Of a DNA stretch of 36,167 nucleotides, positions 11,674 through 29,400 are shown piece by piece. The stretch's first letter is position 1, and every line of letters begins with the position of its first letter. Where the stretch lies: NCBI GenBank assembly GCA_002894665.1, contig NCRB01000023.1, forward strand, positions 1-36,167, written 5' to 3'. The notes under the pieces are model-generated. The model had not been told where the DNA came from. It was given only the letters and a program-made list of their open reading frames with translations, and searched no databases. The stretch is from Salinivenus iranica. Its GTDB lineage: Bacteria > Bacteroidota > Rhodothermia > Rhodothermales > Salinibacteraceae. The translations under genes were made by a program, and so were the position numbers.

Positions 11674-11747
11674 GCGCTCGTAGCTCAGTCGGACAGAGCA
11701 TCGGTTTCCGGTACCGAAGGCCGGGGGTTCGAATCCTCCCGAGCGCA
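11674..11747 (+). tRNA. tRNA-Arg (anticodon CCG)
   Basis: A complete 74-base cloverleaf. The acceptor stem is GCGCTCG/CGAGCGC with discriminator A. The D stem is GCTC/GAGC. The anticodon stem TCGGT/ACCGA closes the loop TTCCGGT, so the anticodon is CCG (reads CGG, arginine). The T arm is GGGGG-TTCGAAT-CCTCC. CCA is not encoded. It lies divergent to the CPBP gene and has its own terminator. Confidence 0.95.
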
Positions 11748-11759
11748 CACCTCCGAAAC

Positions 11760-11810: not shown

Positions 11811-12228
11811 ATTGGCCTCCTGGCGGAAGCAACTGTCAGGCTATGTGAAGCGATCGCAGCTCGTATAAAGGGTTATGGGGAAGCGGTGGGGACGCGATTG
11901 GTTGGCTCTCCGTTTTCGTTTTACCTGTCTTCCGGGCCAATAGTGCCGCGTCTGGCAGATTCGACACACCGGGCCCCTGCGCCGCCACCCAGACATTTTC
12001 CAGCGGTCCGTCTCGTCTCTTCGTCTCTCGCGGGGACCGGTCCGCTTCTTGAACACACCCCCGACCGTCTCGATCACCGAAACGCCGCCCCAAACCCTTC
12101 CGCGCCCCCTGGTCGCGCTACCCGTCCTAAAGAGGACCCCGGGGCGGGAGAAAAAGGAGCGGGCCGACTGCTCCGGGGCCGTCCGAGTCCCTTGATGAAC
12201 GCAGGCGATTGACGAAAGAAAAAGAGGC
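11811..12228. other. Intergenic region between tRNA terminator and sbcC
   Basis: A 418-base stretch with no convincing gene on either strand. Open frames here give arginine- and proline-rich translations typical of noncoding high-GC DNA. The only structure I support in it is the sbcC terminator at 12151-12174. No duplicate of the tRNA 3' end, integrase or att-like repeat was found. Confidence 0.6.
12151..12174 (-). terminator. Rho-independent terminator of sbcC
   Basis: Read on the minus strand, GGAGC (12174-12170) and GCTCC (12160-12156) form a stem around a 9-base loop, followed directly by five T residues. It lies about 55 bases after the sbcC stop codon. The stem is short, so strength is moderate. 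Confidence 0.6.
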
Positions 12229-15200
12229 TCAGGCCTGCATCGAAAGCGTGCTTCCTTCCTGCGTCTGCTCCACCTCCAGCCGGGTGGACACGCGCTGCTT
12301 GAGATCGGAAACGTGCGAGATGATGCCAACCATGCGCCCGGTGTCTCGCAGGTCACTGAGCGCCTCCATCGCCCGGTCCAGCGCCTCCGGATCGAGACTG
12401 CCAAAGCCCTCGTCGATGAAGATGGTCTCCAGATGACGCCCCCCGGAACGGCCCTGCACCACGTCGCTCAATCCTAGGGCCAGCGAAAGCGCCGCCATGA
12501 ATCCCTCGCCCCCCGAGAGCGTTGCTACCGGCCGCTTCTCCCCCGTGTAGGCGTCGTGGACCAGCAGGTCCAGGCCCGAGCCACTGCGCCGGTCGCCCAC
12601 GTCCTCCGACCGGAGGAGCCGATACCGATTCTGCGTCATGTGGGCGATGTGCTCGTTGGCCACACTGAGCACCTCCTCCAGCCGCGTGGCAAGCACAAAG
12701 CGCTGCAGGCTCATCCGGCTCTCGTTGTCTCCTCGGGCCAACTTGGAAAGGAAGCCCACCTGGCGATACCGCTCGTCGGCTTCTTGAAGAGCCTCTTCGA
12801 TGTCCTCAATGGCCTGAAGGGTTTCCTCGATTTCCTCCACCTTCACTTCCAGCTTGGTCGTCCTCTCCTTCACCTTGTCCAGCTCCTCCTCCAGGGACTC
12901 GACGGTGTCTTTCGCCCCCTCCACGTCGGGCTCCTCCACGTTTTCGGCGGCCTCCTCCGCACGCGCCTTCCGGTCGGTGGCCGCTGCCCAGCGCTCTTCA
13001 AAGTCCTGAACCTCTTCCTTCAGCGACTCCCGCTCGTCTTTGTCCCGGCGCGCATCCTCGAAAGCCGTTTTGTTCTCGAAGCCATTCGCCCGAAGCGCCT
13101 TCTCAAATCGCGCCTGCGCCTCGCCGAGCCGCTCGGCGGCCTGCTGGGCCGCGTTCTGTTTGCTAAGCGCCGACTGCTTCTTCTCGGCTCGTTCCTCCCG
13201 GGCGTCCTGCACGGCGGACTCGGCCTCCTGCAGGGCCTCCTCTAGAGCCGCCAGCTCCGAGGTGGTCTCGTCAAGCGCCTCTTCCAGGGCCTCCTGTGAG
13301 GCAACCTCCTCCGGAAGCCGCCCCCGGATCGTGTCGGCCTTCGAGCTGAGACCGTCCATCTCGCTTTCCAGGTCGTCGATCTCCTCGTCCAGTTCCTCAA
13401 TTTCCTTCTCCAGCGCCTCCACTTCGTTCTCTCGCTCTTGAATGTTCTCGGCCAGCGTCTCCCCCTCGTCGGCGGCGGCCCGCGCCTCCGCGAGCGCCTC
13501 TTCGGCGGCCGCAAAGTCGGCGTCGATCTCCTCCCGGGTCTTCTCGTCGAGGGCGGCATGGTTCTCCTTGAGGCTTTTGACCTCCGTCTGCTTTTCCGTG
13601 AGCGCGGATTGGGCTTCTGCGACGGCCGACTCCGCCTCGTCGAGCGCCTCCCGGGCATCTTCCGTCTCCACCCGAGCGTCGGCGATCTCTTCTTCACCCG
13701 GCACGTCGCGCTCCTCATGCGCAGGGGCGGGGTGCTCCTCCGATCCGCACACCGGGCACGGCTCGCCCTCGGTCAGGCCCGCAGCCAGCGCCGACGCGTA
13801 GGCGTCCCGGCGCTGCTCCTCCAGGGCCTTCAGATCCTCTGCCGCCTCCTGAACGGCCCCCTCCCGGGCATCCCGCTTCTCGCGGGCCTCCGCTAGGGCC
13901 GCCTCCGCCTCTTCAACCGCGTCCTCCTTTTCCTCCAGCTCTGATGCCTTCTCCCTCAGGGTCTCCGCCTCCTCGTATTCTTTCTGGAGCAGGTCTTCCC
14001 TTCCCGCGACGTCCTCCGTCTCCTCCAAGGCCTCCCGCTGGTCTTCCAGCTCCGCTTCCAGGGTCGCTTTCTCGTCCTCCGCCTCTTCGCGCCTCCCAGT
14101 AAGCTGCTCTTTCTTCTTACGGCGATCCGTCAGCGCCACTTCAACCTCCTCCAGGGTTTCGATCTCTTCCTCCAGGCCCTCCAAGCGTGTGTTCTTCTCC
14201 CGGAGCGCCTCCCGCTCCTCGTCGCGCTGCCTCTCCGCCTCCAGATCGTTCTCGGCCGTTTCGAGGGCCTCCTGTGCCTCTTCCAGGGCCGTCTGGGCGG
14301 AGAGTGCCTCCGCGTCTGCCGCCTGTTTCTCATCACGCCGCGTCTGGAGATCCTCCTCGACGGGCGCCACTTCGGCGGCCCGCTGTGCATCGTCGAGCCG
14401 CTGCTTGCGCGCCTCGTGGCCCCCTCGTTCGTCCCGGAGTTCCTCGACGGCGGTCCGGGCGGCCTCAAGCTCGTTCAGGGTCTCCCGGGCGGACTTCGCC
14501 TGCTCAAGCGCCTCGCGGGCCGACTCGTACCGGTTGGAGAGGTCCTCTTTGCTCTCCCTCGTCTCCGCCAGATTCGATTTGGTCTCCGCCCGTTTCTCCG
14601 TCAGCTCCTCCACGTCCTCCGCCCCCTGGCGAGCCAGCTCCTCCCGTTTCTTTTCCCGCAGGCGTTGGACGTCGCCCTCGGCCTCCGATGCCATCTCCTT
14701 CAGGAGGTCCTGGAGGCGCTCGTATCGACCGGTTTCAAAGAGCACCTTGAGAATGTCCTCTCGCTCCGACGAGCCGGCCGAGAGGAAGGCGCGGAATTTG
14801 CCTTGCGGCAAGACCACCACCTGTCGAAACTGCTCGTGCGCCAGCCCCAGGAGATCCTCGACGGCGCGGTCCACGTCTCGCTTGCCATCGGCGATGGGCT
14901 CGCCGTCCGACCCCGGCGTCTCCGCCTCTGAACGGTCGTAGAGCGTGGCCTGCTCGCTCTTGGAGGTCGTGCCCTCTCCTCGCTTCTTGGCCAGCGCCTG
15001 CTGCGGGCGCCGCCGCACCCGATAACGCGTCTCCCCGAGCCGAAAGTCGAGGGTCACCTCCGTCGGGTCGTTCGGCGTCGCAAAGTCGCTTCGCATCTCG
15101 TCCCCGTCCCGCTCGCTGCCGGAGGTCTCGCCGTAGAGCGCAAAGCAAATCGCGTCGAGAAGCGTCGACTTGCCCGACCCGGTGGCCCCGTGGATGAGGA

Positions 15201-15291
15201 AAAGCTGGCGGGCCCCCAACTGTTCGAAGTCAACCGTTTGCGGCTCGGTGTACGGGCCAAACTCATTGAGTTCGAGGCGCTCGGGGGTCAT
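12229..15291 (-). CDS. sbcC: Exonuclease SbcC (Rad50-type ATPase)
   Basis: A 1020-residue SMC-like ATPase, the partner of SbcD in processing DNA ends, hairpins and protein-blocked ends. The Walker A is GATGSGKS (residues 35-42), followed by a Q-loop region VVLPQGKFRAFL. Two long, very Glu-rich coiled-coil arms flank the zinc hook CPVCGSEEHP near residue 511. The ABC signature LSGGEGFMAALSLALGLSDV lies near 925 and the Walker B IFIDEGFGSLD near 957. Length matches the family (E. coli 1048). The ATG at 15291 is right at the conserved LELNEFGPY. sbcD is upstream on the same strand but is separated by 637 bp holding toxin-antitoxin remains, which is unusual because sbcD and sbcC are normally adjacent. 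Confidence 0.95.
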   Translation of the reverse strand: MTPERLELNEFGPYTEPQTVDFEQLGARQLFLIHGATGSGKSTLLDAICFALYGETSGSERDGDEMRSDFATPNDPTEVTLDFRLGETRYRVRRRPQQALAKKRGEGTTSKSEQATLYDRSEAETPGSDGEPIADGKRDVDRAVEDLLGLAHEQFRQVVVLPQGKFRAFLSAGSSEREDILKVLFETGRYERLQDLLKEMASEAEGDVQRLREKKREELARQGAEDVEELTEKRAETKSNLAETRESKEDLSNRYESAREALEQAKSARETLNELEAARTAVEELRDERGGHEARKQRLDDAQRAAEVAPVEEDLQTRRDEKQAADAEALSAQTALEEAQEALETAENDLEAERQRDEEREALREKNTRLEGLEEEIETLEEVEVALTDRRKKKEQLTGRREEAEDEKATLEAELEDQREALEETEDVAGREDLLQKEYEEAETLREKASELEEKEDAVEEAEAALAEAREKRDAREGAVQEAAEDLKALEEQRRDAYASALAAGLTEGEPCPVCGSEEHPAPAHEERDVPGEEEIADARVETEDAREALDEAESAVAEAQSALTEKQTEVKSLKENHAALDEKTREEIDADFAAAEEALAEARAAADEGETLAENIQERENEVEALEKEIEELDEEIDDLESEMDGLSSKADTIRGRLPEEVASQEALEEALDETTSELAALEEALQEAESAVQDAREERAEKKQSALSKQNAAQQAAERLGEAQARFEKALRANGFENKTAFEDARRDKDERESLKEEVQDFEERWAAATDRKARAEEAAENVEEPDVEGAKDTVESLEEELDKVKERTTKLEVKVEEIEETLQAIEDIEEALQEADERYRQVGFLSKLARGDNESRMSLQRFVLATRLEEVLSVANEHIAHMTQNRYRLLRSEDVGDRRSGSGLDLLVHDAYTGEKRPVATLSGGEGFMAALSLALGLSDVVQGRSGGRHLETIFIDEGFGSLDPEALDRAMEALSDLRDTGRMVGIISHVSDLKQRVSTRLEVEQTQEGSTLSMQA

Positions 15292-15380
15292 CGCGGATGT
15301 GGTGAGCGGTGGAGTTGAAGCGGAAAAAAGTGAAGCGGGACCCCGAAGAGGAATCGTTCCAGCAGAACCGGGGCATTCAA

Positions 15381-15612
15381 TCAGTCCCTCGAACCTTCAT
15401 TCAGCATCGCCTGGACCGTCTGCTTGGGCGGAGGAAGATCGTTCTCAATACCGTTCCAAACTTCGTCGAGATCAATGCCCATATACTCGTGGATGAGGGT
15501 GCCCCGGAATCCATCAATCCGACGCCATGGCACCTGGTCGTACCGTTCAGGAAGCTCGGGAGAGCTGCTTCACCGCTTCCCCGATCCCCTCAAAGTTACG
15601 GATGATCGCATC
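15381..15612 (-). pseudogene. Decayed HepT-like (DUF86) HEPN toxin, C-terminal remnant
   Basis: No intact frame remains, but two minus-strand pieces match HepT-type HEPN proteins. The first (15612 to ~15553) reads DAIIRNFEGIGEAVKQLS and then meets a stop. One frame over, ELPERYDQVPWRRIDGF continues into RGTLIHEYMGIDLDEVW and IENDLPPPKQ, ending at a TGA at 15381. The catalytic HEPN motif R-x4-H-x-Y (RGTLIHEY) is intact. The N-terminal half (roughly 50 residues) is missing, and a frameshift separates the two pieces. In living systems HepT is an RNase toxin kept silent by AMPylation of the Tyr by its MntA partner, whose remnant lies immediately upstream. Confidence 0.75.
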
Positions 15613-15631
15613 CTAAAGCACAAAGGAGTCG

Positions 15632-15796
15632 TTAAAGGCCGCTCGCCCCCTCTTCCATGTCGACGAGCAAATCGAGGTCGCCATCGGGCCACTCCCCCCC
15701 ACGAGCAGCAGAGCCAAAGAGTCGTCGGTTGTTTGCACCGTGCTCGCGAGCCAGGCGAAGAATCTCGGCCCGGTGATCGTGGATGGCCGAATGCAT
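15632..15796 (-). pseudogene. Truncated MNT nucleotidyltransferase antitoxin (MntA-like)
   Basis: A 54-residue open frame beginning MHSAIHDHRAEILRLAREHG. It carries the nucleotidyltransferase motif LFGSAARGGEWPDGDLDLLV (GS-x9-D-x-D, with both metal-binding aspartates present) and then breaks off at VDMEEGASGL-stop. Normal MNT proteins of this family are about 95-110 residues, so the C-terminal half is gone. The HepT-like remnant follows within 20 bases on the same strand, also lacking its facing half, as if one deletion joined the two genes. It might still be translated, but it lacks the rest of the MNT fold, so I call it a pseudogene. Confidence 0.75.
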
Positions 15797-15928
15797 TGTG
15801 GGGTGTTGTTTCGGTGAAGGGGTCGGTCTCTCTACGCCCGCTCATTCATTTCGATTCTCTGTGTCTTTGGGGCCGTTCTCATTCGGGTCTGGCGTCGCAA
15901 GAATGGCTTCACAAGACAGAACGGACCC

Positions 15929-17080
15929 TCAAGCCTCCCGCTCCTCCTCCCTCAGCCGATCGAAGGCCTCCTCCAACACCGCTCGCTGCCTCTCCGAAAG
16001 ATCCTCGTCCCCGGTGACGTGCGCCGCAAACTCTTCGAAGACCTCTTTCTCGCTCTGGGCCTGAAGGTCGCCGGCCAGCCCGTCCAGACTGCCCCCCTCG
16101 ACCCGGGCCGGGTGCTCGACGTGCAAAGCGTTGGGGTACGTCTCCCGAATGCGGCTCATGGCATCGACGACCGGCCCGTCGTCCTGAAGCGTCACCCAGA
16201 CGTAATCCCGCACGTTCTCGTCGGGCGAGGGGCCTTCTTGAATCTCCGAAAGGGTGCCCTCTACGCGGCGCAGGTCGCGCTCGGGTACCAGTGGAAGCCG
16301 CTCCACCTCACACCCTCCGTCCTCGTCCATCTCCACGAGCGTGACGGACTTCTCGTGGTGGACTTCGTCGAAGGAGTATTTCATGAGGGAGCCGGAATAC
16401 CGAACGTGATCCGTGCCGACCTGCTGGCGGCGGTGCAGGTGGCCGAGGGCCACGTAGTCGAATCCCGCAAAGCGAGAAGGGTGGACGGTCTCGGCTCCCC
16501 CGACCGCGAGAGGCCGCTCCGAGTCGGCCAACGCCCCACCCTGGGCAAAGACGTGCGCAACAGCGATGGACCGCTCCGCGTCGGGGAGGGTCGCGCGGGC
16601 TGCGTCCGCCTGCGCGGCCACCACGTCGTCGTGCGTCTTGATGTCAGTGTCCTCAAACACGTGACGGGCCTGCGGGGGCTCGGTGTAGGGCAGGCCCGCA
16701 ATGTGCACCGGGCCATGCTCGTCCTCAACCGTCACCACGCCCGGCGCCTGCCGGGGCTTACTGAAGACGTGCAGGCCCTGCTCCCGCAGAATGCGCGAGC
16801 CAAAGTCGAGGCGATCGGGGCTGTCGTGGTTCCCGCCAATCATCACGACCGGCGTGTCCCGTTCGATCACCAGCGCCGACAGGGTGTCGTCCAGAAGCTC
16901 AACGGCGTCGGCAGGCGGCACCGACCGATCGTAAACGTCGCCCGCCATGAGGACGACGTCGGGACTCTTCTCGTCAACAATCTCGCAGAGCTGGCGGAGA
17001 AGACCTCGCTGTTCGGTGGTGAGATGCTCACCATGGAGGAGCTTGCCGAGATGCCAGTCGGCGGTGTGGAGGAAGCGCAT
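15929..17080 (-). CDS. sbcD: Exonuclease SbcD (Mre11-type nuclease)
   Basis: A 383-residue calcineurin-like metallophosphoesterase, the Mn2+-dependent nuclease subunit of SbcCD. All phosphoesterase motifs are present: HTADWHLG (D8, H10), AGDVYDRS (D48, D51), GGNHDS (N84, H85) and FDYVALGHLHRRQ. The C-terminal part (from ~270) is the capping and SbcC-binding region, ending in a Glu/Arg-rich helix. The ORF can be read from a TTG at 17086, but the ATG at 17080 (MRFLHTADWH) is the better start. It is 44 bp downstream of the DUF4011 helicase gene on the same strand, suggesting one transcript. Confidence 0.95.
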   Translation of the reverse strand: MRFLHTADWHLGKLLHGEHLTTEQRGLLRQLCEIVDEKSPDVVLMAGDVYDRSVPPADAVELLDDTLSALVIERDTPVVMIGGNHDSPDRLDFGSRILREQGLHVFSKPRQAPGVVTVEDEHGPVHIAGLPYTEPPQARHVFEDTDIKTHDDVVAAQADAARATLPDAERSIAVAHVFAQGGALADSERPLAVGGAETVHPSRFAGFDYVALGHLHRRQQVGTDHVRYSGSLMKYSFDEVHHEKSVTLVEMDEDGGCEVERLPLVPERDLRRVEGTLSEIQEGPSPDENVRDYVWVTLQDDGPVVDAMSRIRETYPNALHVEHPARVEGGSLDGLAGDLQAQSEKEVFEEFAAHVTGDEDLSERQRAVLEEAFDRLREEEREA

Positions 17081-17124
17081 ACGCAATGTCAGTGGATCAG
17101 AAATGGCGAACTGGAGGCAACAGT

Positions 17125-20100
17125 CTACTCCCCGACGGTGAGGTGCCCGTTCTCTAGCGCCAGCGAGCCCCGCTCTATCATCGCGTCGATCACCCCGCCA
17201 ATGCGGGCCTCAATGTTGGAGCCGATCCGGCCGAAGCCAAGCTGGCGCCCCACCTGCTCCACGAGTTCGTCCTTCTCGATGCCGAAGGACACGTCGACGA
17301 TGGTTTCCGCTGCCGTCGCAATTTCCGAATCAGGGACGTGCTGAATGTCGCGAGCCGGCCCCTCCAGCTCACTCCGGTCCCGGACGGGCACCGTCTCCTG
17401 CTTGGGATCATGTAGGATCTCCCCGCGCTTTTCGATCGAGCCGGTCCGGGCAGCGGACCGAATGCCCTTTTCCAGGGCCTCCCGGATGCGGCTTCCCATT
17501 CGACTCACGTCCGACGCGTCCAGCACGCGACGCATTGCGACCTCTTTGTGAACCGGACTCTCCTCAGAAACGACTGTTTCTATCCAACGCCCCAGGGTGG
17601 AGGTCGGCTCGTCGTGCAGCCCATCGCGCACGTTGATTCGGAGCGAGGCCTTTTTGTAGGGCACCGCGTCCGTTTCGGGCTCCTCTTCTTCGGCTCGCTC
17701 AATCTGGGTCTCCCGTTCCTGCGGCGGCTCGCGGTCCGGGGCCTCTCCTCCATCCTCCGTGCCCTCGCGCGAAGAGTCCTCCGCCCCTCCGTCGGTGGGC
17801 TCCTCCGCGTCCCCATTTGAGGCCGCCGACCGCACGCGGGCCCGCTCAATGGCCGTAACGGCCCGACCGAGCTGCTCGCCGGGGGTGCGGAACCAGTCGG
17901 TACTCCAGATGCGGTGAATCGACCAGCCGAGGCTCTCCAGAACGGACTGCCGGGTCCGGTCCCGAACGCGGGCCATCTTGGCGCTGTGGTAGGTGGCCCC
18001 GTCGCACTCGATTCCAAGAATGTAGCGGCCCGGCCGCTCGGGGTCGACGACGGCAAGGTCAATGGAGAAGCCGGCCACCCCCACCTGGTGCTCCACCCGG
18101 TATCCTTCGTTCCGCAAACGCTCCGCAACCGCTTCCTCAAAGGGAGAATCCGGCCCGCGCCCCGAGGGCGTCGCCAGGTCGAGCTCACCGGTCTCCGCGA
18201 ACTTTAGGTACTCCTTGAGCACTTCCACCCCACGCGCATCGGTACGGTGCAAGTCGATGTCCTCCGCCTTGAGGTTGGTGAAGACCTCGCAGCGAAGCTT
18301 GGCGCGGGTCGTGAGGACGTTCAGTCGCCGCTCCCCGCCCTGCTGGTTGAGCGGCCCAAAGTTCATCGACACCCTTCCGTCGTCATCCCGCCCGTAGCCG
18401 ACGCTGATAAAGATCACGTCCCGCTGGTCGCCCTGCACGCTCTCCAGGTTCTTGACGAAGAAGGGCTCGTCGGGGTGGCCGGAGAAGAAGTCCTCGCAGC
18501 TCGGGTCCTGCCGGCGCTCGTATTCGAGGCGGTCCCGAATCGCGTCCTGCTGGGCGCTGCTGAACGTAGCCACACCCAGAGAGAGGTCCGGCTCGGTGCG
18601 GGCGTGCTCCATAACCCGCTGGGCCACAACTTCTGCCTCCCCCTTATTCGTTCGGCTTCCGCCCCGATCGTAGGTCGTATCCGGGAGGTGGTTGAAAAAG
18701 AGGCCCGTTTCTTCCCGCTCCGCGTCCGGGCTCGGAAAGACGTTGAGGTTGTTGTCGTAGAACTCCTTGTTCGAGACGGCAATGAGCGACTCGTGTCGGC
18801 TCCGGTAGTGAAACCGGAGCATCTGCTCCGGAGCGCCCCGCGAGCGAAAAAGATCCAGAATGCTCTCCTGGTCGGAGGCCTGTTGCTCGAAGTCATCGCC
18901 TCCCGTATCGATCGCCGAATCGAAGAAGCTGGTGGGCGGGAGCTGCTTATTGTCGCCTACAACAACGGTCTGGTCCCCCCGCAAGATGGAGCCGAACGCA
19001 TCGACCGGGCGGACCTGACTGGCCTCGTCGAAGACGACGAGGTCGAAGCTGATGCTTTCCGGTGGGAGGTACTTGGGCACCGACATCGGGCTCATCATGA
19101 ACACCGGCTTGATCGCCTGAATGGCATTCCCGGCCCGTTCCATCAGTTTGCGAATGGGCATGTGGCGGCTCTTCTTTCCCATCTCGTGGAGGAGCACGCC
19201 CATCTGGCCCGCCCCACTCTTTCGGGGCATCCGCTTGTAATGCTCCAGGGCAAGCGCGTGCCGGTTGTGCTCGAGGCTCGCCTTGTCGAGCTCCTGGAAG
19301 CGTTCGACGACCTGCTCGTGCTGGGCGCCGCTGAAGCGCTCCAGGGCCGACCGCTCGTCCATCGCCCGCTCTAGAAGTGCGTTGTAGTAGGCGTGTCGGA
19401 AAATGTCGACTAGATGGTTGGGGCCCTCTTCCCACTCCTCGACCAGGTCGCGAATCGGCCCCAGTCCCTCCTCTTCCAGCTCCTCGGCGAGCTGGTTGTA
19501 GGTGACCATCTCCTGAATCCGCGGGGCCTCGTCTCGGCACCGAGTGAAAGCGCGCCGCTGCGTTTTGTAGGGCTGAGACGGCAAGGGCGATCCGTCTAGG
19601 CGGACGTCCGGGTCGAGATCGATCTCCTCGGCAAAGGCCGTCACGGCCTCGCGGTGCCCGTCGCGCGCGTGCCGCACCTTGTCGGTGAGAGACGCAAGCC
19701 GGCGCTCGGCCGGCGGATCGGCGACCGTGTCCAGAAGGGCCTCGGGGAGCCTTCCCTGGCGGATGGCCTCGTGGAGCGCAGTCAGGAAGTCGGTGACTTC
19801 CCGGAGAAGGGCCCAGTCCGAGGAGGCGCCGCGCCAGGCGGAACCGAACGCCGTCTCTCCAAGAGACGCCTGCTCCTCGAACTGCTCCTCCAATCGCTGC
19901 GCCTCTAAGATGGCGTCGACGAAGTCGAGGCGAGCCGCCGTCCCGCCGGGCAGCGATTTTTTACAGAGGGCCGCCAGGTCGTTTTTGGCGCTCCGCCACT
20001 CGCTGAAGATCCATCGGTACCACTTCTCGCCGTGCGTCGCCAGCCCCTGCCGAATGTCGAAGACCTCCTGGTCCCAGGCCTCCGGAATCAACACGTCATC

Positions 20101-21948
20101 GTACTCGTCGTGGAGCGCCTCGTACCGCTCCCCCGCCTGAACCAACTCGGCAAGCGGGCCGGCTTGCCCCCGAAAGGCCTCCGACGTCGGGTGCACCCCC
20201 GTCAGATCGGGCATGCGAAGCATCCGGTCCGACGCCTCCAAGAGCCCCTCCGTCTCCTCGGGGTCCTCAGGTTCGAACACGCCGAGGCAGCGGGCCAGGT
20301 CCTGCGCCGCCTGCTGCAGGACGTCCAGGCTCTCGGCAGCGGCGCTAGCCGCCCGCTCGATGCTGTCGCGTTCCGCAGGGAGGAAGCGGGTCTTATCGCT
20401 CCCCCAGAACGGGTGCCGGGACGGCACGCCCATCTCCGACAGGTGGGACTGGACCTGCTCCAAAAGAAACTTCTTTTCCTCGTATTCTTGCCCGTCCCAC
20501 GTTCGCATCGCAGAAAACTCAATCGAGGGCATCGTCACTTCCGAAAGGGTCTCCCGAAGGCGGACAAGCTCCCCGTAGGCATCGTACGGGCGGACGCCGC
20601 TCTCCCCAATGGGCCGGTTGACCGCCTCCGCGTAGCCGTTAAGCGTATCGCGGGCATCTGTCATCACGGCGGCCTCCTGGGTGAAGTCGTCCACCTGCGG
20701 CTCCCCGAGGTTGAGGGTCCGCTCCAGTTCCTGCAGAATCGCTTTCTTTTGGGTTTTGTGGCTGTGGAGCTCCAGGCAGGCGTCCCCGAGGCCCACCGCA
20801 TCGAGGTTGCGCTTCACCACCTCCAGAGCAGCCATCTTCTCCGATGCAAAGAGAACCGTCCTCCCCTGCCCCATCGCCTCGGCAATGATGTTGGTAATGG
20901 TCTGCGACTTGCCGGTGCCCGGCGGGCCCTGAAGCACGAGGTCCTGCCCCCGCTTCACCGCAAGGAGGGCCTCGGTCTGGGAGCTGTCGGCATCGACGAC
21001 GTGATAGGTGTCCGCCGGATCAAGGTGCTCGTCGAGCCCCTCCTCAGCGATCTCGGAGATCGGGGTCTCCGTCGGCTCGAAGCCCTCGCCCAGAAGCTTT
21101 TTCAGCACGGGGTGGTCGTCCGGGCGCTCGCCCTCCGGCCAGTTCTCCACGTTCAGGTCCTCGTACATGAGGAATCGGGAGAAGGAGAAGAACCCCAGCT
21201 CAATGGCGTGATGGTCAATGTGCCATCGCTCCTTGTGGTTGATGACCTGCTGGACCTCGTGGAAGTAGCCCTCCACGTCAAGATCTCCTTCCTCCGGATC
21301 GGGGGGCAGGGGCCACTTGAGTCCGTACTCCCCATCCAGAAACGCGCGGAGCGAGAGGTTGCCCCCAATCTCTTCGCCGAGGTACTCTAGCCGGAAGCGG
21401 CCTTGTACGTCTGTGCGGCTGATCTCGACTGGCACAAGCAAGAGAGGCACCTTTCGCTCCTGGTCTGCCGACGGGGAGCGGTACCAGCGCAGCATGCCGA
21501 GCGCCAGAAAGAGCGTGTTGATGCCTTCCTCCTGAATGGAGCGCTCGGCGCGGTGGAACGTGTTCAGGAGCCGCGTTTGAAGCTCCCGGGACGTGTAGGG
21601 CGTCTGGAGCTTGGTGTCGACGTGCCGGTCGGGCGGACCGTTGGTGTCCGCGCCTGATGCCTCGTGGTCGGCATCCGCATCGCGGGGCTCCCTGGGCTGC
21701 CCAAAGAGCTGGCTCTGCTCGGGCCCCTCTGGATCACTCAGCTTTTCCTTTTCCTCTTCCGTCACTTCGAGGAACGACATCTTCCGTCCCTCTTCAACCA
21801 GCCTCCGGTAGACGTGGACCGGACGCTCGTCGATCACCTCCACGCCCCTCGACTTCAGCGTGCGGTGGCTGATGAGGGGATTGCGGAGGGTAAGGTCCAG
21901 GAGCTCGTTCTTGCGGGCCTGATCGAGCTGCTCGGCGATCGAAGACAT
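17125..21948 (-). CDS. Giant DUF4011-SF1 helicase-Vsr-like nuclease-DUF3320 protein
   Basis: A 1607-residue protein. The N-terminus (~1-250) matches DUF4011 (LLDLTLRNPLISH; FLALGMLRWYRS; LLVPVEI). A Upf1/SF1-type helicase follows, with Walker A GPPGTGKS (341-348, K347), Walker B VVFDEAS (D974, E975), then GDNKQLPPTSFF and FHYRSRHESLI, and a final motif SVQGDQRDVIFISVGYGRD. Next is a PD-(D/E)xK/Vsr-like nuclease, FSIDLAVVDPER and GIECDGATYH (E1314, D1316), ending GWSIHRIWSTDWF. After an acidic linker the C-terminus (~1460-1520) is DUF3320-like. All catalytic residues look intact. This domain order has been reported as a candidate antiphage gene (hhe-type, from memory). It probably starts the operon with sbcD and sbcC. 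Confidence 0.9.
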   Translation of the reverse strand: MSSIAEQLDQARKNELLDLTLRNPLISHRTLKSRGVEVIDERPVHVYRRLVEEGRKMSFLEVTEEEKEKLSDPEGPEQSQLFGQPREPRDADADHEASGADTNGPPDRHVDTKLQTPYTSRELQTRLLNTFHRAERSIQEEGINTLFLALGMLRWYRSPSADQERKVPLLLVPVEISRTDVQGRFRLEYLGEEIGGNLSLRAFLDGEYGLKWPLPPDPEEGDLDVEGYFHEVQQVINHKERWHIDHHAIELGFFSFSRFLMYEDLNVENWPEGERPDDHPVLKKLLGEGFEPTETPISEIAEEGLDEHLDPADTYHVVDADSSQTEALLAVKRGQDLVLQGPPGTGKSQTITNIIAEAMGQGRTVLFASEKMAALEVVKRNLDAVGLGDACLELHSHKTQKKAILQELERTLNLGEPQVDDFTQEAAVMTDARDTLNGYAEAVNRPIGESGVRPYDAYGELVRLRETLSEVTMPSIEFSAMRTWDGQEYEEKKFLLEQVQSHLSEMGVPSRHPFWGSDKTRFLPAERDSIERAASAAAESLDVLQQAAQDLARCLGVFEPEDPEETEGLLEASDRMLRMPDLTGVHPTSEAFRGQAGPLAELVQAGERYEALHDEYDDVLIPEAWDQEVFDIRQGLATHGEKWYRWIFSEWRSAKNDLAALCKKSLPGGTAARLDFVDAILEAQRLEEQFEEQASLGETAFGSAWRGASSDWALLREVTDFLTALHEAIRQGRLPEALLDTVADPPAERRLASLTDKVRHARDGHREAVTAFAEEIDLDPDVRLDGSPLPSQPYKTQRRAFTRCRDEAPRIQEMVTYNQLAEELEEEGLGPIRDLVEEWEEGPNHLVDIFRHAYYNALLERAMDERSALERFSGAQHEQVVERFQELDKASLEHNRHALALEHYKRMPRKSGAGQMGVLLHEMGKKSRHMPIRKLMERAGNAIQAIKPVFMMSPMSVPKYLPPESISFDLVVFDEASQVRPVDAFGSILRGDQTVVVGDNKQLPPTSFFDSAIDTGGDDFEQQASDQESILDLFRSRGAPEQMLRFHYRSRHESLIAVSNKEFYDNNLNVFPSPDAEREETGLFFNHLPDTTYDRGGSRTNKGEAEVVAQRVMEHARTEPDLSLGVATFSSAQQDAIRDRLEYERRQDPSCEDFFSGHPDEPFFVKNLESVQGDQRDVIFISVGYGRDDDGRVSMNFGPLNQQGGERRLNVLTTRAKLRCEVFTNLKAEDIDLHRTDARGVEVLKEYLKFAETGELDLATPSGRGPDSPFEEAVAERLRNEGYRVEHQVGVAGFSIDLAVVDPERPGRYILGIECDGATYHSAKMARVRDRTRQSVLESLGWSIHRIWSTDWFRTPGEQLGRAVTAIERARVRSAASNGDAEEPTDGGAEDSSREGTEDGGEAPDREPPQERETQIERAEEEEPETDAVPYKKASLRINVRDGLHDEPTSTLGRWIETVVSEESPVHKEVAMRRVLDASDVSRMGSRIREALEKGIRSAARTGSIEKRGEILHDPKQETVPVRDRSELEGPARDIQHVPDSEIATAAETIVDVSFGIEKDELVEQVGRQLGFGRIGSNIEARIGGVIDAMIERGSLALENGHLTVGE

Positions 21949-22007
21949 GTATGGAGAGGAAAGGCAGAGGGTGCTACAGTAGAAGGGGGGGATGCCGAGG
22001 GGGACGT

Positions 22008-22320
22008 CTATGCCGACACGGTGTCACTGGCGACCGTCTCCCCGTAGACATTATTCCGAATGTCGTCGTGTATTTCACTGGGCTGGAGCTCACTCGTTGC
22101 AGGGCCCGTTCGGATGTAGAAGTGATCCACGTTCTGATAATCACGGTCGGCGGGCACACCGCTCGGCTCACAGTCGACTCAAAAAACCGCTTCCTCCCTC
22201 TTCGACCGAACAATTGAGGAAGCGCAGACAGGACGTTCCGAGTCGATCCTTCACGATGTTCGTGAGATGAAGCATCATGTCGTCAGGGGACTCAAACTGA
22301 TCGTCCCCTGTCGCAGCCAC
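22008..22320 (-). pseudogene. AlbA_2 (Schlafen-type) protein, frameshifted C-terminal remnant
   Basis: Two minus-strand pieces together match the C-terminal half of an AlbA_2-family protein. Piece one (~22313-22180) reads GDDQFESPDDMMLHLTNIVK then DRLGTSCLRFLNCSVEE. After a frame change at a T6 run, piece two (~22175-22008) reads VDCEPSGVPADRDYQNVD and HFYIRTGPATSELQPSEI, ending ...ETVASDTVSA-stop. In intact family members the same blocks occur in one frame (the pattern V-D-x-E-P-S followed by FYIRTG-x-x-T). The N-terminal part with the substrate-binding core is missing. AlbA_2 proteins are often found in defence and restriction loci. It lies 59 bp upstream of the helicase gene. Confidence 0.65.
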
Positions 22321-22350
22321 CTTTCTCGTAATCGCCCGTGGCTCAGCCGC

Positions 22351-22383
22351 CCCTAAATCCATGTAATAATGGAACGGTTAGGG
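22351..22383. repeat. Interrupted inverted repeat between AlbA_2 remnant and SGNH pseudogene
   Basis: CCCTAA (22351-22356) pairs with TTAGGG (22378-22383), and inside it TCCAT (22358-22362) pairs with ATGGA (22369-22373) around the loop GTAATA. It is AT-rich against a GC-rich background. It could be a hairpin terminator remnant or the edge of a lost element; I cannot tell which. Confidence 0.35.
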
Positions 22384-22521
22384 AGTGCGATGGCAACGGC
22401 ACTCCGTGTGACTGCCCCCCTCAAAATCGAGAGGAGTCCCCCTCCGTCGAACCGGAACGGCTACCTCAACGGGTTCGCCTCTCCCTCTCCTCCCTCCCAC
22501 ACAATCGACCGTCTCCTCCCA

Positions 22522-23154
22522 ATGCACCTCGTGCTTCATGGCGATTCGACCCTCGACAACCGCACATATACCTCTGGCGGCCCCGCCGTGATTGACCATC
22601 TCTCCCGACTGCTGCCGGAGGCGGCCCGGGCAACGCTTTTGGCCGTGGACGGTGCGCCCCCCGACGGTGACAGTCAGCGTGATCGGATGCCGACTGGGGC
22701 AACCCACATAGTGCTCAGCGTGGGGGGAAACGATGCGATGCGGGAGATCCCCGTGGTGGACCAGTCGGTGGGGCACGTGTCAGAAGCGCTGACGGAGTTG
22801 AGCGGCGCGACCCAGCGATTTGAAAAGAGGTATCGGGCGTGGTTGCAGCAGGTCCTCCAGACCGACCGGCCCACCACTGTCTGAACGATCTACAACGGCG
22901 CTTTCGACGAGCCCAGCGGGCAGCAGCGCGTCATCAACGCCGCACAGGCGATGTGGAACGACGTGATCCTGCAGACAGCCCTGGACCACGACTGTCCGAT
23001 GCTCGACCTGCGACGGGTGTGCTCCCGCAGGGACGACTACACCCGGCAGATCGAGCCCAACGAGCAGGGCGGGCGCAAGATTGCGAGGGCACTCTTCCGA
23101 GCTGTTTTAGACCCTGCCTCTTCCTCCACACGCATCGGGCCGACCGGTCGGTAA
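22522..23154 (+). pseudogene. SGNH/GDSL hydrolase interrupted by an in-frame TGA
   Basis: The frame from the ATG at 22522 encodes an SGNH hydrolase. Block I is LVLHGDSTLDN (nucleophile S9) and block III is VLSVGGNDAM (residues 68-71 GGND). At codon 121 (22882-22884) a TGA follows RPTTV. The same frame then continues without a shift as TIYNGAFDEPSGQQRVIN, through DHDCPMLDLRRVC and RQIEPNEQGGRKIARALF, to a TAA at 23154. Related proteins usually have a cysteine or another residue before TIY, so a TGC/TGT-to-TGA change explains the break. The whole protein would be 210 residues, normal for the family. The function in the ancestor, probably ester or acyl hydrolysis, is not known in detail. Confidence 0.75.
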
Positions 23155-23421
23155 GTTGTAAATGGCCCTGGTTGGGGCGGCTCTTTAAAAATGTAAGTGG
23201 TTGGAGCCCCGCTCCTCAACCCTTAGAAGATTCCCTCTCGGAAGGAAAGGCCCTCGGGGCGAGTTAGACGTGAACCGTGTTGCCGGCGCGGAACGCGTTC
23301 TTTCCCCCGCTTCGGCGCCCACTCAGGTCGCCCTCTCCCCTGTATCGGAGGGCCTGAGCCCTTTCAGGGGAGAAACTGTCCCCCTGCCACTCTTTTCCTC
23401 ACTATTCTTTTCTCTCACCGG

Positions 23422-24372
23422 ATGAACGATCTTTCCACACGACTCGCCGACGGCCCCCTTCTGCTGGACGGCGGCCTGGGCCAGGAACTGCTCCACCGGG
23501 GCATGCCCCACTCCAAGCCCTCGCTTTGGTCCGCCAACGCCCTCAGCGAAGCCCCCGACCTGGTACAGGAGGTGCACGAAGACTACCTGCGGGCCGGGGC
23601 GGACGTGATCACCACCAATACCTACGCCACGCCCCCGGAGCGCCTCGCGGAGGCGGGCCTGGAAGGCCGAGCGGAGGAGCTCAACCACAGCGCCGGCCAC
23701 CTCGCCGAGCGCGCCCGGGAGGCGGTGGGCCGCGACGCCCTCATCGCGGGGTCGCTGCCCCCGATCCGGGGGAGCTACCGGCCCGACCGGGTGGGCACGG
23801 CCGACGAGATCGAGCCGCAGTACCGCGAGCAGGCCGACTACCTGTCTCCGCACGTCGACCTTTTCCTCTGCGAGACAATGTCGACGCCCGATGAGGCCCG
23901 GGCGGCGGTGCGAGGGGCCGCCGCGACCGGGCGTCCGGTGCTGGTGGCGTACACGATTGCGGACCCCTCCTCGCCGGCCGACACCGAACCGCGTCTCCGC
24001 AACGACCAGTCCCTGGGGGAAGCGGTCGAGGCGCTCTCGGACCTTCCGGTAGAGGGGATCCTTCTGAACTGCTCCTCCCCCGAAAGCATCTCGGCGGCCG
24101 TGCCGGTTCTCCGAGGGCTGACCGAGCGGGCGGTTGGCGCCTACGCCAACGCCTTTACGCACATCCCGGACGACTTCGACGAGCACACTGAGGTTCTGGA
24201 CCCGGATGGCAGGCCCAAACAGCGCGAGGACCTCGGCCCCGACGCCTACCAGGCGCACGTTGAAGACTGGCTGAGCGCCGGTGCCGACATCGTGGGGGGC
24301 TGCTGCGAGGTGGGCCCCGATCACATTGCCCGCCTGCGCACAACGGTCGACAACGCGGCGAGCCGTCGCTGA
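23422..24372 (+). CDS. Homocysteine S-methyltransferase-family protein
   Basis: A 316-residue (beta/alpha)8 barrel of the zinc-dependent homocysteine S-methyltransferase family (MmuM/BHMT type), which moves a methyl group from a donor such as S-methylmethionine or betaine to homocysteine to give methionine. The three zinc cysteines are C217 in GILLNCSSPESI and C294-C295 in VGGCCEVGPDHI. The N-terminal LLDGGLGQEL and the GADVITTNTY block are typical. The methyl donor cannot be decided from sequence. The ATG at 23422 precedes the conserved DGG block directly. The 267 bp upstream hold no gene. It appears monocistronic. Confidence 0.9.
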   Translation: MNDLSTRLADGPLLLDGGLGQELLHRGMPHSKPSLWSANALSEAPDLVQEVHEDYLRAGADVITTNTYATPPERLAEAGLEGRAEELNHSAGHLAERAREAVGRDALIAGSLPPIRGSYRPDRVGTADEIEPQYREQADYLSPHVDLFLCETMSTPDEARAAVRGAAATGRPVLVAYTIADPSSPADTEPRLRNDQSLGEAVEALSDLPVEGILLNCSSPESISAAVPVLRGLTERAVGAYANAFTHIPDDFDEHTEVLDPDGRPKQREDLGPDAYQAHVEDWLSAGADIVGGCCEVGPDHIARLRTTVDNAASRR

Positions 24373-24485
24373 GGGAAACGGCCGTGTCGCGGTTAGGAGC
24401 GGCACGAGCGCGTAGGCATTTCGGTGCTGCGGTCCGCACGGGGAGACGGGCCGGTGCGGCTTCCTGTTTTCACTCGGCCCCACGG

Positions 24486-24510
24486 TGTAACACTGCACTG
24501 TCCAGTTACA
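24486..24510. promoter_or_regulatory. Operator-like inverted repeat upstream of the kinase gene
   Basis: TGTAAC (24486-24491) and GTTACA (24505-24510) are perfect inverted half-sites with 13 bases between. The pairing extends imperfectly inwards (CTG with CAG). It lies 67 bases before the kinase start codon, in the right place for a repressor or activator site. No regulator is identified. Confidence 0.3.
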
Positions 24511-24577
24511 ACGGCTCACGTGGGCATGCAACCGCGGGGTTTGTCTTTCTGTTGCGTTTCCTACTCGGTCTCCCAAG

Positions 24578-26164
24578 ATGATGCGGCGCCGATTTACTCC
24601 AAGCGGCCTGGTTGTGGCTCTTCTCGGGTTCGTGCTGACGCGGTCTACCGTCACGTTTGCTCTCTCGGACACCCCCCTGACGTTTATTGTGGGCAACGTG
24701 TCGCCCCTCCTGCTGGGGCTGTCCTTGTCCGCTTTTGGGGTCGCCCTCGCCGTCGGGACCTTCAAGCGGAGCTACGTGCGCACCATTGCGGGCTGGACGG
24801 TGCTGGGAGCCGGGACCATTGCCCTCCTTGTCGTCGCAACCGTCTACGGGACGGCTCGTCACCTCCTGGAAGAGGCCCGGGCAATCGAGGTGTTTTCGAA
24901 TGTGTTGATTGGGGGCAGTGTCGGGGGCGCCCTAACCGGCGTCTATGCGGCCCAGAGCCAAAGCTATGAGCGCAAGCTCCTGAATCGCCAGAATCGACTG
25001 GTTGTCCTCAATCGGCTCCTGCACGACCGGGTGATGAACGCGGTGACCGTCGTGAAAGGAAGTGTCTCCCTGTTGCAAGAACAAGCGCACGCCGGACCGG
25101 AGGCCGACGCGCCGCCCGATTCGATCGGCGCCATCACGGAAAAGATGGAGTCGATCGAAGCGACCATGAGCAGCGTACAGGACCTCGCCGAGCCCGGCTC
25201 GGAGGCGGAGCGAAGGCCGGTCGACGTGTCTTCCCTCGTGGAGGAGGCGCTGGGCCGGGCGCGCGAGCGGCACCCCGACGCGACGTTCGTGGCAGAAGAC
25301 CTCCCGTCCGGCGTGTCCGTCCATGCGAATCACCGGCTCGCCGACGCCCTCTACCAGCTCGCGGCCAACGGCGCCGAGCACGCAGGGGCGGAGGCTCCCC
25401 GTGTCGTCGTAACGGCAGAGGTGCGGGACGAGGCGGTTACGCTGTCGGTGATCGACGAGGGCCCCGGGCTTCCCGATCGGGGGCGAACGGTCCTCGAACG
25501 CCCTACGACCATTGCCGGAAATGACGGGCCCAGGGCAGGCCTCGGCCTCTATCTCGCCCGGCTTTCCGTGGAGGCGGTGCGGGGGGCCGTCGAAACAGAG
25601 GTCACGGAGGCAGGGACATCGATCTCCATTACCGTGGGGCGGAGCGGAGACAGGGGTACGCCGTTCCGAGTTGCCCGGAGCCCCTCCGCAGTGGGGGTTG
25701 AACCGGAACGCCTCGGGGCCGTGGCCCTCGTCGCGCTGGGGGCCGGGGCCCTCATGGGGGGATACGTAGAACTTACGGTTGGGGCCATGCCCATCATCGG
25801 GTCGCTCTACGGAGCGGAGAACGCGACCGTCGGAGCCCTCACCCACGGGTTTCACAGCCTCGTGTTTGGACTCATCTACGCGGCGATCCTGAAAGCCGTG
25901 CCCCGTCCGCACAGCGGCGGATGGGGCGCTCGCGTCGGGGTAGGCTTGGCGTGGGGCGGGGCGCTCTGGCTAGTGGCGAGCGGCATCATCATGCCGGTGT
26001 GGCTCAACCTCGTGGGACTGCCGGCGCCGCTGCCCGATTTGGGGCTCCACAGCCTGGGGGCGCACCTGCTCTGGGGAGGCGCCCTAGGGATCGGGGAAGC
26101 CGCGAGCGAGGCGTGGGGCCTTCCCGGTCGTCTCCAGTCGGGCTGGAAACGGGCGATTCGATGA
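24578..26164 (+). CDS. Membrane histidine kinase with membrane domains at both ends, haloarchaeal-like
   Basis: A 528-residue protein. The N-terminus (1-~125) has about four membrane segments. A short dimerisation helix follows with RQNRLVVLNRLLHDRVMNAV (likely phospho-acceptor H149). Then comes a HATPase_c domain with an N-box-like LYQLAANGAEHA (N264), a G1 box DEGPGLP (D293) and a G2 box GLGLYLA (G321). After a linker, the C-terminus (~385-510) has about four more membrane segments (VGAMPIIGSLYGAENATVG; GFHSLVFGLIYAAIL; GLAWGGALWLVASGIIMPVW). The RLVVLNRLLH pattern and the C-terminal membrane block recall haloarchaeal sensor kinases. No receiver or response regulator is adjacent. The ATG at 24578 is the first of two adjacent Met codons. 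Confidence 0.82.
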   Translation: MMRRRFTPSGLVVALLGFVLTRSTVTFALSDTPLTFIVGNVSPLLLGLSLSAFGVALAVGTFKRSYVRTIAGWTVLGAGTIALLVVATVYGTARHLLEEARAIEVFSNVLIGGSVGGALTGVYAAQSQSYERKLLNRQNRLVVLNRLLHDRVMNAVTVVKGSVSLLQEQAHAGPEADAPPDSIGAITEKMESIEATMSSVQDLAEPGSEAERRPVDVSSLVEEALGRARERHPDATFVAEDLPSGVSVHANHRLADALYQLAANGAEHAGAEAPRVVVTAEVRDEAVTLSVIDEGPGLPDRGRTVLERPTTIAGNDGPRAGLGLYLARLSVEAVRGAVETEVTEAGTSISITVGRSGDRGTPFRVARSPSAVGVEPERLGAVALVALGAGALMGGYVELTVGAMPIIGSLYGAENATVGALTHGFHSLVFGLIYAAILKAVPRPHSGGWGARVGVGLAWGGALWLVASGIIMPVWLNLVGLPAPLPDLGLHSLGAHLLWGGALGIGEAASEAWGLPGRLQSGWKRAIR

Positions 26165-26481
26165 GGACCGACAGGCGACCACACCGTCAAATGGGGGGTG
26201 CCGGGAATGTGGTGAAGAGTCGCGCTTTTCCGGCCCTTCGGGGACGTCGTCTTCGTCGTCCCCGAATTGCACTCGGCGTCCGCAGCGAACCCGTCGCAGA
26301 TCCGCCGGCTCCAGAAGAGACTGCGTCGGCTGGAGCAGGCGCGGGATGTCGTGGCAACAGGCGCCCCTGGGGCCCGGCCTGCCCCCTCCGGGAGCCCGGC
26401 GGGTTTCCTCTTCACTCTTCCAGTTTACGGACGCGCCCCGGGCCGAACGTCCAGGGCCCGCCCCGACGGATCGGTCCCCAG
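26165..26481. other. Convergent intergenic region (kinase / addA-like)
   Basis: A 317-base gap between two convergent genes. I see no credible coding sequence. Its only clear structure is the perfect hairpin at 26237-26266, listed separately. Confidence 0.6.
26237..26266. terminator. Hairpin in the convergent kinase/addA-like gap
   Basis: The arms TTCGGGGACG (26237-26246) and CGTCCCCGAA (26257-26266) pair perfectly over 10 bp around a 10-base loop. A T-run is lacking on both sides, so intrinsic termination is uncertain. Its position between convergent genes favours a bidirectional terminator or mRNA-end structure. Confidence 0.45.
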
Positions 26482-29400
26482 TCACGCCCGCAGCGCCTCA
26501 AGAAGCTCTGGGGCGTCACGGGTGGGATCGGGCTCCACCGACACGGGCACCAGGCGGGGCGCGTCCGCAAACCAGAGCCCGGCCTGCGTCACGGACTCGC
26601 CTGCGTGCTGCGCCCACAGGGCGGCGTACGCCCGCACCTGGCGCCGGTACGGATGGTCGGGCGGCAGCGAGAGGTCCGCCTCCTTCTCGACACGATCCGT
26701 CTTAAAGTCGATGAGCGCCCATCCCTCGGGCCGCCGGTAGAGAAGATCGACCGTCCCGCGGACATGAATCGAGGGAGTCCCCTCCACCACCTCCGCCAGT
26801 GGATACTCGGCGTACGCAATCTGGGCCTCCACGACGTCCTCCCAGAACGCACTGTCGAGCACGCCACGCACCTGACGCCGCACCCGATCGAGGTGCTCCG
26901 CCGGAGCGTCTACGCCCGCCTCGCGGAGCGCGTGCCGGGCCTCCGCGCGTGACACCGCTCCTCCCCGCCGACGCTCCCGGACGCACTGCTCCAGAAGCCG
27001 GTGGACCGCCGCCCCCATCTCCGGGCCGTATCCGGGGGCCCCACCTTTCACCGCGGAGGGCGTCCGCTCCTCGTCCGTAACCGACTGGGGCTGATACGAC
27101 GGGTGGGAGCGGTCCTCCACGCGGCGGGCCCGGTCGGCACGGGCCGCGTCCAAGTCCGGAGCGGGGGCGTGCCGGCCGTGATCGGGCGAGACGGCCGGCG
27201 GATCGAACGGGGCAACCTCGGCCGCCTCCAGGTGCGGATAGAGCGGGGCCCACGGGCCGTCGTTCGGCTTCTCCGGATAGGTGGACACCACCAGCAGGTT
27301 GCGGGCCCGGGTGGCCGCCACGTAGAGGAGACGATGGTCCTCAGCCGTCTCGTGCCGCGCCTCAAGGGCCCGGAAGGAGGAGGCACTCCCGTCGTCCCAG
27401 CCGAGCGGCGGATGCGTGATCTGCTGGTAGTAGCCGTCTCCCTGCACCAGGGGCGCCACCAGCTCGTCCGTCTCCCGCCGCACATGGCGGGTGACGGTGT
27501 GGGTGTTGCCGCGGCTGTACGGGTCCGCCAAAAACACGACCGGCGCCTCCAACCCCTTCGCCTGGTGCACATTCATGAGCCGAACCGCCTCGCCCCGCCC
27601 CGTCTCCAGGGTGAGTCCATCGATGGTTTCCTCCCCGTCCAGCACACGCTGCAGCTCCTCGGTGACCTCGGCCCAGCCCAGCCCCTGCGCCGACAGGGTG
27701 TCGACGACCGTAAGCAGGCGAAGGACGGCCCCGGCCCGCAGCGACCCGTCGGCGGGATCCGGCGGATGGGCCGCCCCGGCCAGCAGCCCAAAGGCATCCA
27801 CGATGCGCTCCATCGCAACCGCCGGTCGGGCCTCGCGGAGCCACGCCCGGGCGCGACGGAGCCGCGTGAAGGCGGACTGGAGGCGCTCTCGGAGCGGCTC
27901 TTCCATCGCCCCAAGCACCGACTCCGACACCGGCTCGTGCACCTGATCAAACGTCCCGCCGGCCTCTCGAAACTGGTACAGGTCGTCGTCGCTGCACCCG
28001 ACGAGCAGGCCCTTCAGGTACGCCACGACGGCCACGGGGTCGTCCGGGCGCAGCGCACAGGTGAGCAGGTCCACCAGCGCCTTCAGTTCCGGCGCCGCCC
28101 CGAGGTCTTCGCTCCCCGTGACCGTGTACGGAATGTTGTAGGCCGCCAGGGTTTCAGCGTAGATGGAGAGGCGCGTCTTGTTGCGCGTCAGAATGAGCAT
28201 GTCGTCGTATCCGGCCCCTCCCGGGAAGACCGCCTCCTCATCCCCCGGCGGCCCGTAGAACGCGTCGTCGAGCCGACCGTCGACGGCCGCCCGGATGGCA
28301 CTCGCGATCTGCTCGGCATTTGCCGCCGCAATGTCGCGCCCCCAGTTTCCCGACACCTTGTCCACGTCGAGCCGGCGGAGGGTGGTGTCGGGGGCCCCTG
28401 GCGGGCGCTGGGGATCGAACGGAACATAGTGTGCCTGCTGGTCGGCCACGGCCGGGTCCGCAAAGATCTCGCCGAAGGCGCGGTCGCACCAGTCGCAGAT
28501 GCGGCCGCGCGAGCGGAAGTTCTTGGTGAGGTCCACCGCCTCCCCCCCCGCGTCCTCCACCAGCGCGCCCACCTCGTCGAACACCTCCTTGTCGGCCCGC
28601 CGGAAACGGTAGATGGACTGCTTGTCGTCGCCGACGATGAAGAGGCTGCCGGGGCGAGGACGGCAGGCCCGCCAGTCGGTCTGGGCGGGATCCTGGCTTG
28701 TCAGGTAAAAAAGGATTTCGGCCTGGAGCGGGTCGGTGTCCTGAAACTCGTCCACCAGGAGGCATCCGTACTGCTCCGCAAAGTGCCGACGGATGTCGGG
28801 GTGATCGCGGAGGAGGTCGCGCGTGTAGAGCAGAAGGTCGTGGAAGCTCAACGTCCCCTCTTCCCGGCGCAGGGCCCGAACCTCCTCCACGGCCGGCTGC
28901 ACGAACGACACCACCTCGGCGTGCACGACGGCGCGCCACGGGCGCAACACGGGGTGGATGGTCTCTTCGACCAGGGCGGGCAGCGTCTCGTCCCGAAGCG
29001 TCGTGGCCTCGGCCTTCGCCTCTCCCCAGTAGGTGACCTTGCACTTGCGATTGGGCACCGCGCCGTCGCGCACCAGGTCGTCGAACAGGCCCAGGAAGGT
29101 TGCGCGCTGGGCCGGGGTGTCGAGGCGCTGGTACCGAAGCATCTGCTCGGCCTTGTCGAACGCCCGCATGGTGGCGTCTCGCCCCTTCGGCGGCGGGTCG
29201 GGGCGCAGGGCCTGCCACCGCTCCAGGTGCGACTGTACCTTCTCCACCGCGGACTGAAGGTCGGGGACGGGGTCCGGGGCGTTCGTGTATGGAGTGAGTT
29301 CTGGGTGTGCACAGAGGGTGCGGAACGATCCCTGTAGGTCATCGGGCTCCAGCCCCAGCGCCGTGATGTCATCGATCCGCTCCGGCGCCTCCGCCCGGAC

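Follow-up and report, generated by a model that had tools for sequence, protein, structure and literature searches.

Does the large helicase-nuclease gene of Salinivenus iranica protect its host from mobile DNA, or does it serve the cell in another capacity, such as DNA repair? The gene lies in a 36,167-nucleotide stretch of DNA (the window) that lies on contig C49 of a 3.4-Mb genome, estimated as 98.8% complete. It occupies positions 17125..21948 of the minus strand as an uninterrupted open reading frame of 1607 codons, with an ATG start that is supported by close homologs starting at the same point and with no internal stops. The initial annotation had proposed an intact 1607-residue frame at these positions without giving a strand, and this is borne out. 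The nearest named genome, that of Salinivenus lutea DBO (Salinibacteraceae), carries a copy of 97% identity with the same neighbors, hereafter the sister. Our preferred reading, to which we assign a probability of roughly 0.65, is that the gene is a stand-alone anti-mobile-element candidate of the PDC-S37/ProA family, in which a single protein would target DNA. This reading rests on an uninterrupted frame with its domains in the order proposed, ATPase and nuclease residues that never vary, folds of the Vsr and winged-helix kinds, a patchy distribution and the lack of any neighbor common to the holder genomes.

Pfam searches recovered the previously proposed order of DUF4011, helicase, Vsr-like nuclease and DUF3320, with all of the encoding segments on the minus strand. 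The DUF4011 domain spans residues 15–204 (21337..21906; E 4e-37). Its fold, in an AlphaFold model of residues 1–330 (pLDDT 79), returned no Foldseek match at E <= 0.1, and the best comparison reached a Z score of 2.9. The helicase is represented by the Pfam pieces AAA_19 (residues 324–378), AAA_11 (967–1007) and AAA_12 (1029–1225), and a sequence search of the PDB identified SMUBP-2 and Sen1 as its closest solved structures. Judged by sequence, it is a UPF1/SMUBP2-like SF1 helicase, in which both the Walker A lysine and the Walker B DE pair are intact. Residue conservation was scored across many phyla, in a set of 68 full-length homologs. K347, within the Walker A motif GPPGTGKS (residues 341–348; 20905..20928), and the Walker B pair D974-E975 (19024..19029) are identical in 68/68, and these residues lie where the initial annotation had put them.

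The nuclease matches the MTES_1575 family of Vsr-like PD-(D/E)XK enzymes (PF18741; residues 1270–1366; 17851..18141; E 8e-37, 125.7 bits). E1314 and D1316 had been named as its functional residues, a claim that stood for D1316, invariant in all 68 homologs, and failed for E1314 as a key position; it also missed D1297, which is equally invariant. Residue 1314 is glutamate in 55 of the 68 and aspartate in four, with serine, asparagine, isoleucine or leucine in the remainder. The 13 homologs in which E1314 is replaced all belong to the Bacteroidota (Chryseobacterium, Pedobacter, Sphingobacterium and some Chitinophaga) and retain their other motifs. Because E1314 varies among homologs, it is a poor choice for mutagenesis, and D1297 and D1316 are better ones. 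E1271 is, like E1314, frequent among the homologs.

Structural modeling of residues 1240–1607 (mean pLDDT 83) places D1297 in strand two of the nuclease core, E1314 in strand three and D1316 at the end of strand three. The modeled nuclease resembles the catalytic domain of I-Bth0305I (Z 11.4), the endonuclease-like structure 3hrl (Z 10.5) and DNA-bound E. coli Vsr (1cw0; Z 9.3, rmsd 3.1 over 101 residues). DUF3320 (residues 1442–1490; 17479..17625; Pfam E 1e-19) is modeled as helices followed by a hairpin. The last 70–80 residues of the protein (about 1527–1607; 17128..17370) resemble winged-helix domains by fold comparison, with Z scores of 8–9.5 over 60–77 aligned residues.

Between the nuclease and DUF3320 lies an acidic linker (residues 1367–1441; 17626..17850), the middle of which, at about 1380–1420, is predicted to be disordered (pLDDT < 50). 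Its length is 75 residues between Pfam edges and 63 by alignment, short of the approximately 100 suggested by the initial annotation. That account had also viewed the linker as a glutamate-rich halophile adaptation; its acidity is real (35% D+E), but the linkers of many non-halophile relatives contain 25–38%, so acidity at this position is not specific to halophiles. Linkers are 63–103 residues long in the Salinibacteraceae versus about 39 in most relatives. Over the whole protein, D+E reaches 18.9% versus about 14% in relatives, and it is plausible that salt adaptation involves the entire protein, with no feature specific to the linker.

The family to which the protein belongs can be assigned from profile matches. 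The PADLOC profile PDC-S37 aligns end to end, from residues 2–1603 of the protein to positions 2–1544 of 1550 (1972 bits), with no sequence difference found. PDC systems are candidates that derive from a guilt-by-embedding approach, and experimental validation is pending for most of them (PMC12988326). In the NCBIfam release of June 2026, the equivalog NF058533 ("anti-phage protein ProA") has a cut-off of 1500 bits, which the window protein passes marginally at 1546.5 bits over profile positions 362–1903. Short forms from other bacteria score 1391–1717 bits on this profile, and the cut-off therefore runs through the short-form group. A mesophile short form, from Chitinophaga (L008), has 42% identity to the window protein. 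Since the match begins at position 362, leaving positions 1–361 (about 360 N-terminal residues) without a counterpart, we describe the protein as a short-form ProA rather than one with the full ProA architecture. All above-cut-off matches in the Rhodothermales likewise begin at about 346–362. A literature search found no paper that names PDC-S37 or stands behind the ProA name.

The initial annotation had likened the domain order to that of hhe-type candidate antiphage genes. The antiphage type is supported by the full-length PDC-S37 match and the above-cut-off ProA match; the assignment to Hhe is not. Hhe, reportedly described by Gao et al. 2020, shares with the window protein the order DUF4011-SF1 helicase-Vsr-like nuclease, and the Hhe models do match, best over the helicase-nuclease half (759 bits with PADLOC, 1059.9 bits with NCBIfam NF042953). 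However, the latter score falls below the NCBIfam cut-off of 2000 bits, PDC-S37 and ProA score far higher, and an annotated Hhe from Vibrio tubiashii (1915 aa) has no DUF3320 match at E 0.01. It is thus highly improbable that the window protein is a true Hhe, which on profile scores we place as the next family over.

What the missing N-terminal region might contain is suggested by longer relatives. The long-form ProA encoded on a Bacteroides plasmid (L137) matches the profile from position 1, unlike the window protein, and its N-terminal region yields a weak, sub-threshold transglutaminase-like match. This agrees with a 2013 paper in which MTES_1575 proteins are described as giants with the architecture HEPN-transglutaminase-SF1 helicase-Vsr-wHTH (PMC3710099). 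The SF1 helicase, the novel Vsr REase and the wHTH overlapping DUF3320 of these giants (PMC3710099) are also present in the window protein, whereas Pfam finds neither HEPN nor transglutaminase domains in its 1607 residues. Several homologs from the Chloroflexi carry an N-terminal extension of roughly 245 residues; the one tested (L007:9896-10670) has no Pfam match.

The MTES_1575 architecture was predicted to attack invading DNA independently of modification, by means of its C-terminal wHTH (PMC3710099). Our best reading of the Salinivenus gene applies that prediction, by analogy, to a form lacking HEPN and transglutaminase domains. The C-terminal winged helices would bind incoming DNA, the UPF1/SMUBP2-like helicase would translocate along it or remodel it, and cleavage would fall to the Vsr-like nuclease, with no need for a modification enzyme or other partner gene. 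We infer that in Salinivenus the targets would be phages or plasmids and the substrate DNA, with helicase activity gating the nuclease. A more speculative extension, which we rate as doubtful, is that the short form scans DNA without a partner and by a mechanism of its own, with a nuclease that can do without its second acidic residue (E1314), in contrast to the longer ProA and Hhe proteins, which may need their N-terminal module as a trigger or effector.

The same arrangement of domains raises the main alternative to single-protein restriction, namely abortive infection. Here the helicase would sense damaged DNA or intermediates of phage replication and free an indiscriminate DNA-degrading nuclease, and the infected cell would be killed or arrested. 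Consistent with this, helicase and nuclease form a single chain that includes a flexible linker, a helicase-gated nuclease has precedent in the two proteins of Hachiman (PMC12278908), and no modification gene that could protect the host adjoins the helicase-nuclease in the window annotation. Sequence fits direct restriction equally, however, and searches gave no link to HamA or HamB. We consider abortive infection unlikely and continue to favor single-protein restriction.

The neighborhood of the gene bears on a third explanation. On the same strand, an sbcD frame begins 38 bp downstream, with sbcC beyond it; upstream lie genes for a homocysteine S-methyltransferase and a histidine-kinase-like protein, as well as addAB at a distance of 4.5 kb. 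There is no intact defense neighbor within the window. These surroundings could point to a resident enzyme of DNA repair or DNA-end processing that acts together with the neighboring SbcCD and with AddAB a short distance away, and that is not mainly defensive. Support for such a role also comes from Chitinophaga, in which the gene keeps its position (synteny), and from Pseudomonas aeruginosa, in which a DUF4011 gene belongs to the core genome and borders a defense hotspot (PMC10250203). In addition, the gene tree is congruent with that of AddA within the genus. Against it, the window genome and its 97% sister are the only two in which sbcDC lies beside the gene; genomes G006 and G007 carry sbcDC elsewhere, without the gene alongside. 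We therefore rejected a functional operon with SbcCD as a general feature. The neighbors of other holders are unrelated, and many of the complete genomes in the genus are without the gene. A repair role accordingly strikes us as improbable, and we retain the reading of a stand-alone defense candidate.

Several other features of this region were observed. The SbcD/SbcC pair (12229-17086) is itself patchy: SbcD is 54–79% identical in G006, G007, G014 and G016, and the majority of genomes in the genus have no more than a distant SbcD-like gene (about 33%). Between sbcD and sbcC, on the minus strand (15292-15928), is a decayed MNT-HepT toxin-antitoxin remnant (NTP_transf_2, 21.3 bits; HepT-like, 59.5 bits after joining two frames). 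The sister (L002) also has a broken MNT-HepT copy, and in G006 and G007 the sbcD-sbcC gap is 58–70 bp. An SGNH-hydrolase-like frame, recognized by eye and apparently frameshifted, occupies 22369-23154 of the plus strand; its first 171 aa have no Pfam match. The interval 12000-26500 coincides with a break in synteny, with the CAAX-protease/cdsA block separated from addA by about 15 kb here versus about 105 kb in G011 and 107 kb in G003. Integration at the tRNA-Arg gene (11674-11748) was considered and rejected, as the 3' end of the tRNA is not repeated in the window. A recent foreign origin on grounds of composition was likewise rejected, as the GC content (0.647) and GC3 (0.825) are near the values of neighboring genes.

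Patchiness extends to the distribution of the gene, which is present in 7 of 27 Salinibacteraceae genomes and missing from several complete genomes of the same genus. Applied across the Bacteroidota, a less stringent threshold of E <= 1e-80 picks out 13 of 148 genomes, some of them through partial matches to related longer proteins. Chromosomal copies from the Salinibacteraceae group together in the gene tree, with the two copies from elsewhere in the Rhodothermales as sister, and a distant copy on a Salinibacter ruber plasmid (37% identity) forms a separate lineage. A tree of AddA for the genus sets the window genome and its sister apart from a group that contains G005+G006 and the gene-less G007, G004, G003 and G011. 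Taken together, the two trees fit vertical descent accompanied by losses, and local transfer would fit equally. The holder loci compared in the Salinibacteraceae and Rhodothermales share no neighbor and have only the gene itself in common, so the gene has probably moved. At the same time, the synteny in Chitinophaga and a Salinibacteraceae tree that fits vertical descent indicate resident-like behavior in some lineages. As for carriage by phages, one fecal phage-labeled contig encodes a relative of 29% identity, and a scan of viral contigs, which reaches close relatives only, found none.

Defense context among homologs is clearest on plasmids. We viewed ten annotated plasmid homologs, of which four have clear defense neighbors and the others have unclear ones or none. 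One lies 2.5 kb from a type I-E CRISPR-Cas system, and three others neighbor, respectively, SIR2, two DUF262 genes, and DUF4297 with DUF87/HerA. With no control for the plasmid set and only crude gene calling, the evidence for a defense context is suggestive only. In a genome of the Rhodothermales (G038; L119:8145-17569), a type IIG restriction enzyme-methyltransferase (MmeI-like) overlaps the end of the gene and is followed by DUF3800; the three possibly form an operon. Among the 139 neighbors of 27 chromosomal homologs, PADLOC families are few and mostly found in one member each, with no enrichment relative to 133 control genes, the matches of which are largely AddA and SbcC. The initial annotation had proposed that ubiquitous vertical inheritance with no defense context would speak against its hypothesis. 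Vertical descent with losses does fit the tree, but the gene is far from ubiquitous and several plasmid homologs reside in defense clusters. We also considered a link to AddAB through UvrD/PD-(D/E)XK genes that adjoin two homologs on haloarchaeal plasmids. UvrD relatives occur on 43 plasmid records, mostly haloarchaeal, far exceeding the few haloarchaeal plasmids with the gene; the link is therefore not specific and was rejected.

The Salinivenus gene is a well-formed, ordinary member of a catalogued candidate antiphage family, and on its own it changes little. The family is catalogued, yet its mechanism is undescribed in the literature we searched. To it the window adds an intact PDC-S37/ProA member from a halophile and a set of residues to mutate (K347, D1297 and D1316). 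If the gene is protective, its product would be a compact helicase-nuclease able to restrict DNA in the absence of a modification partner, and comparison with the longer ProA and Hhe proteins would reveal the role of the N-terminal module.
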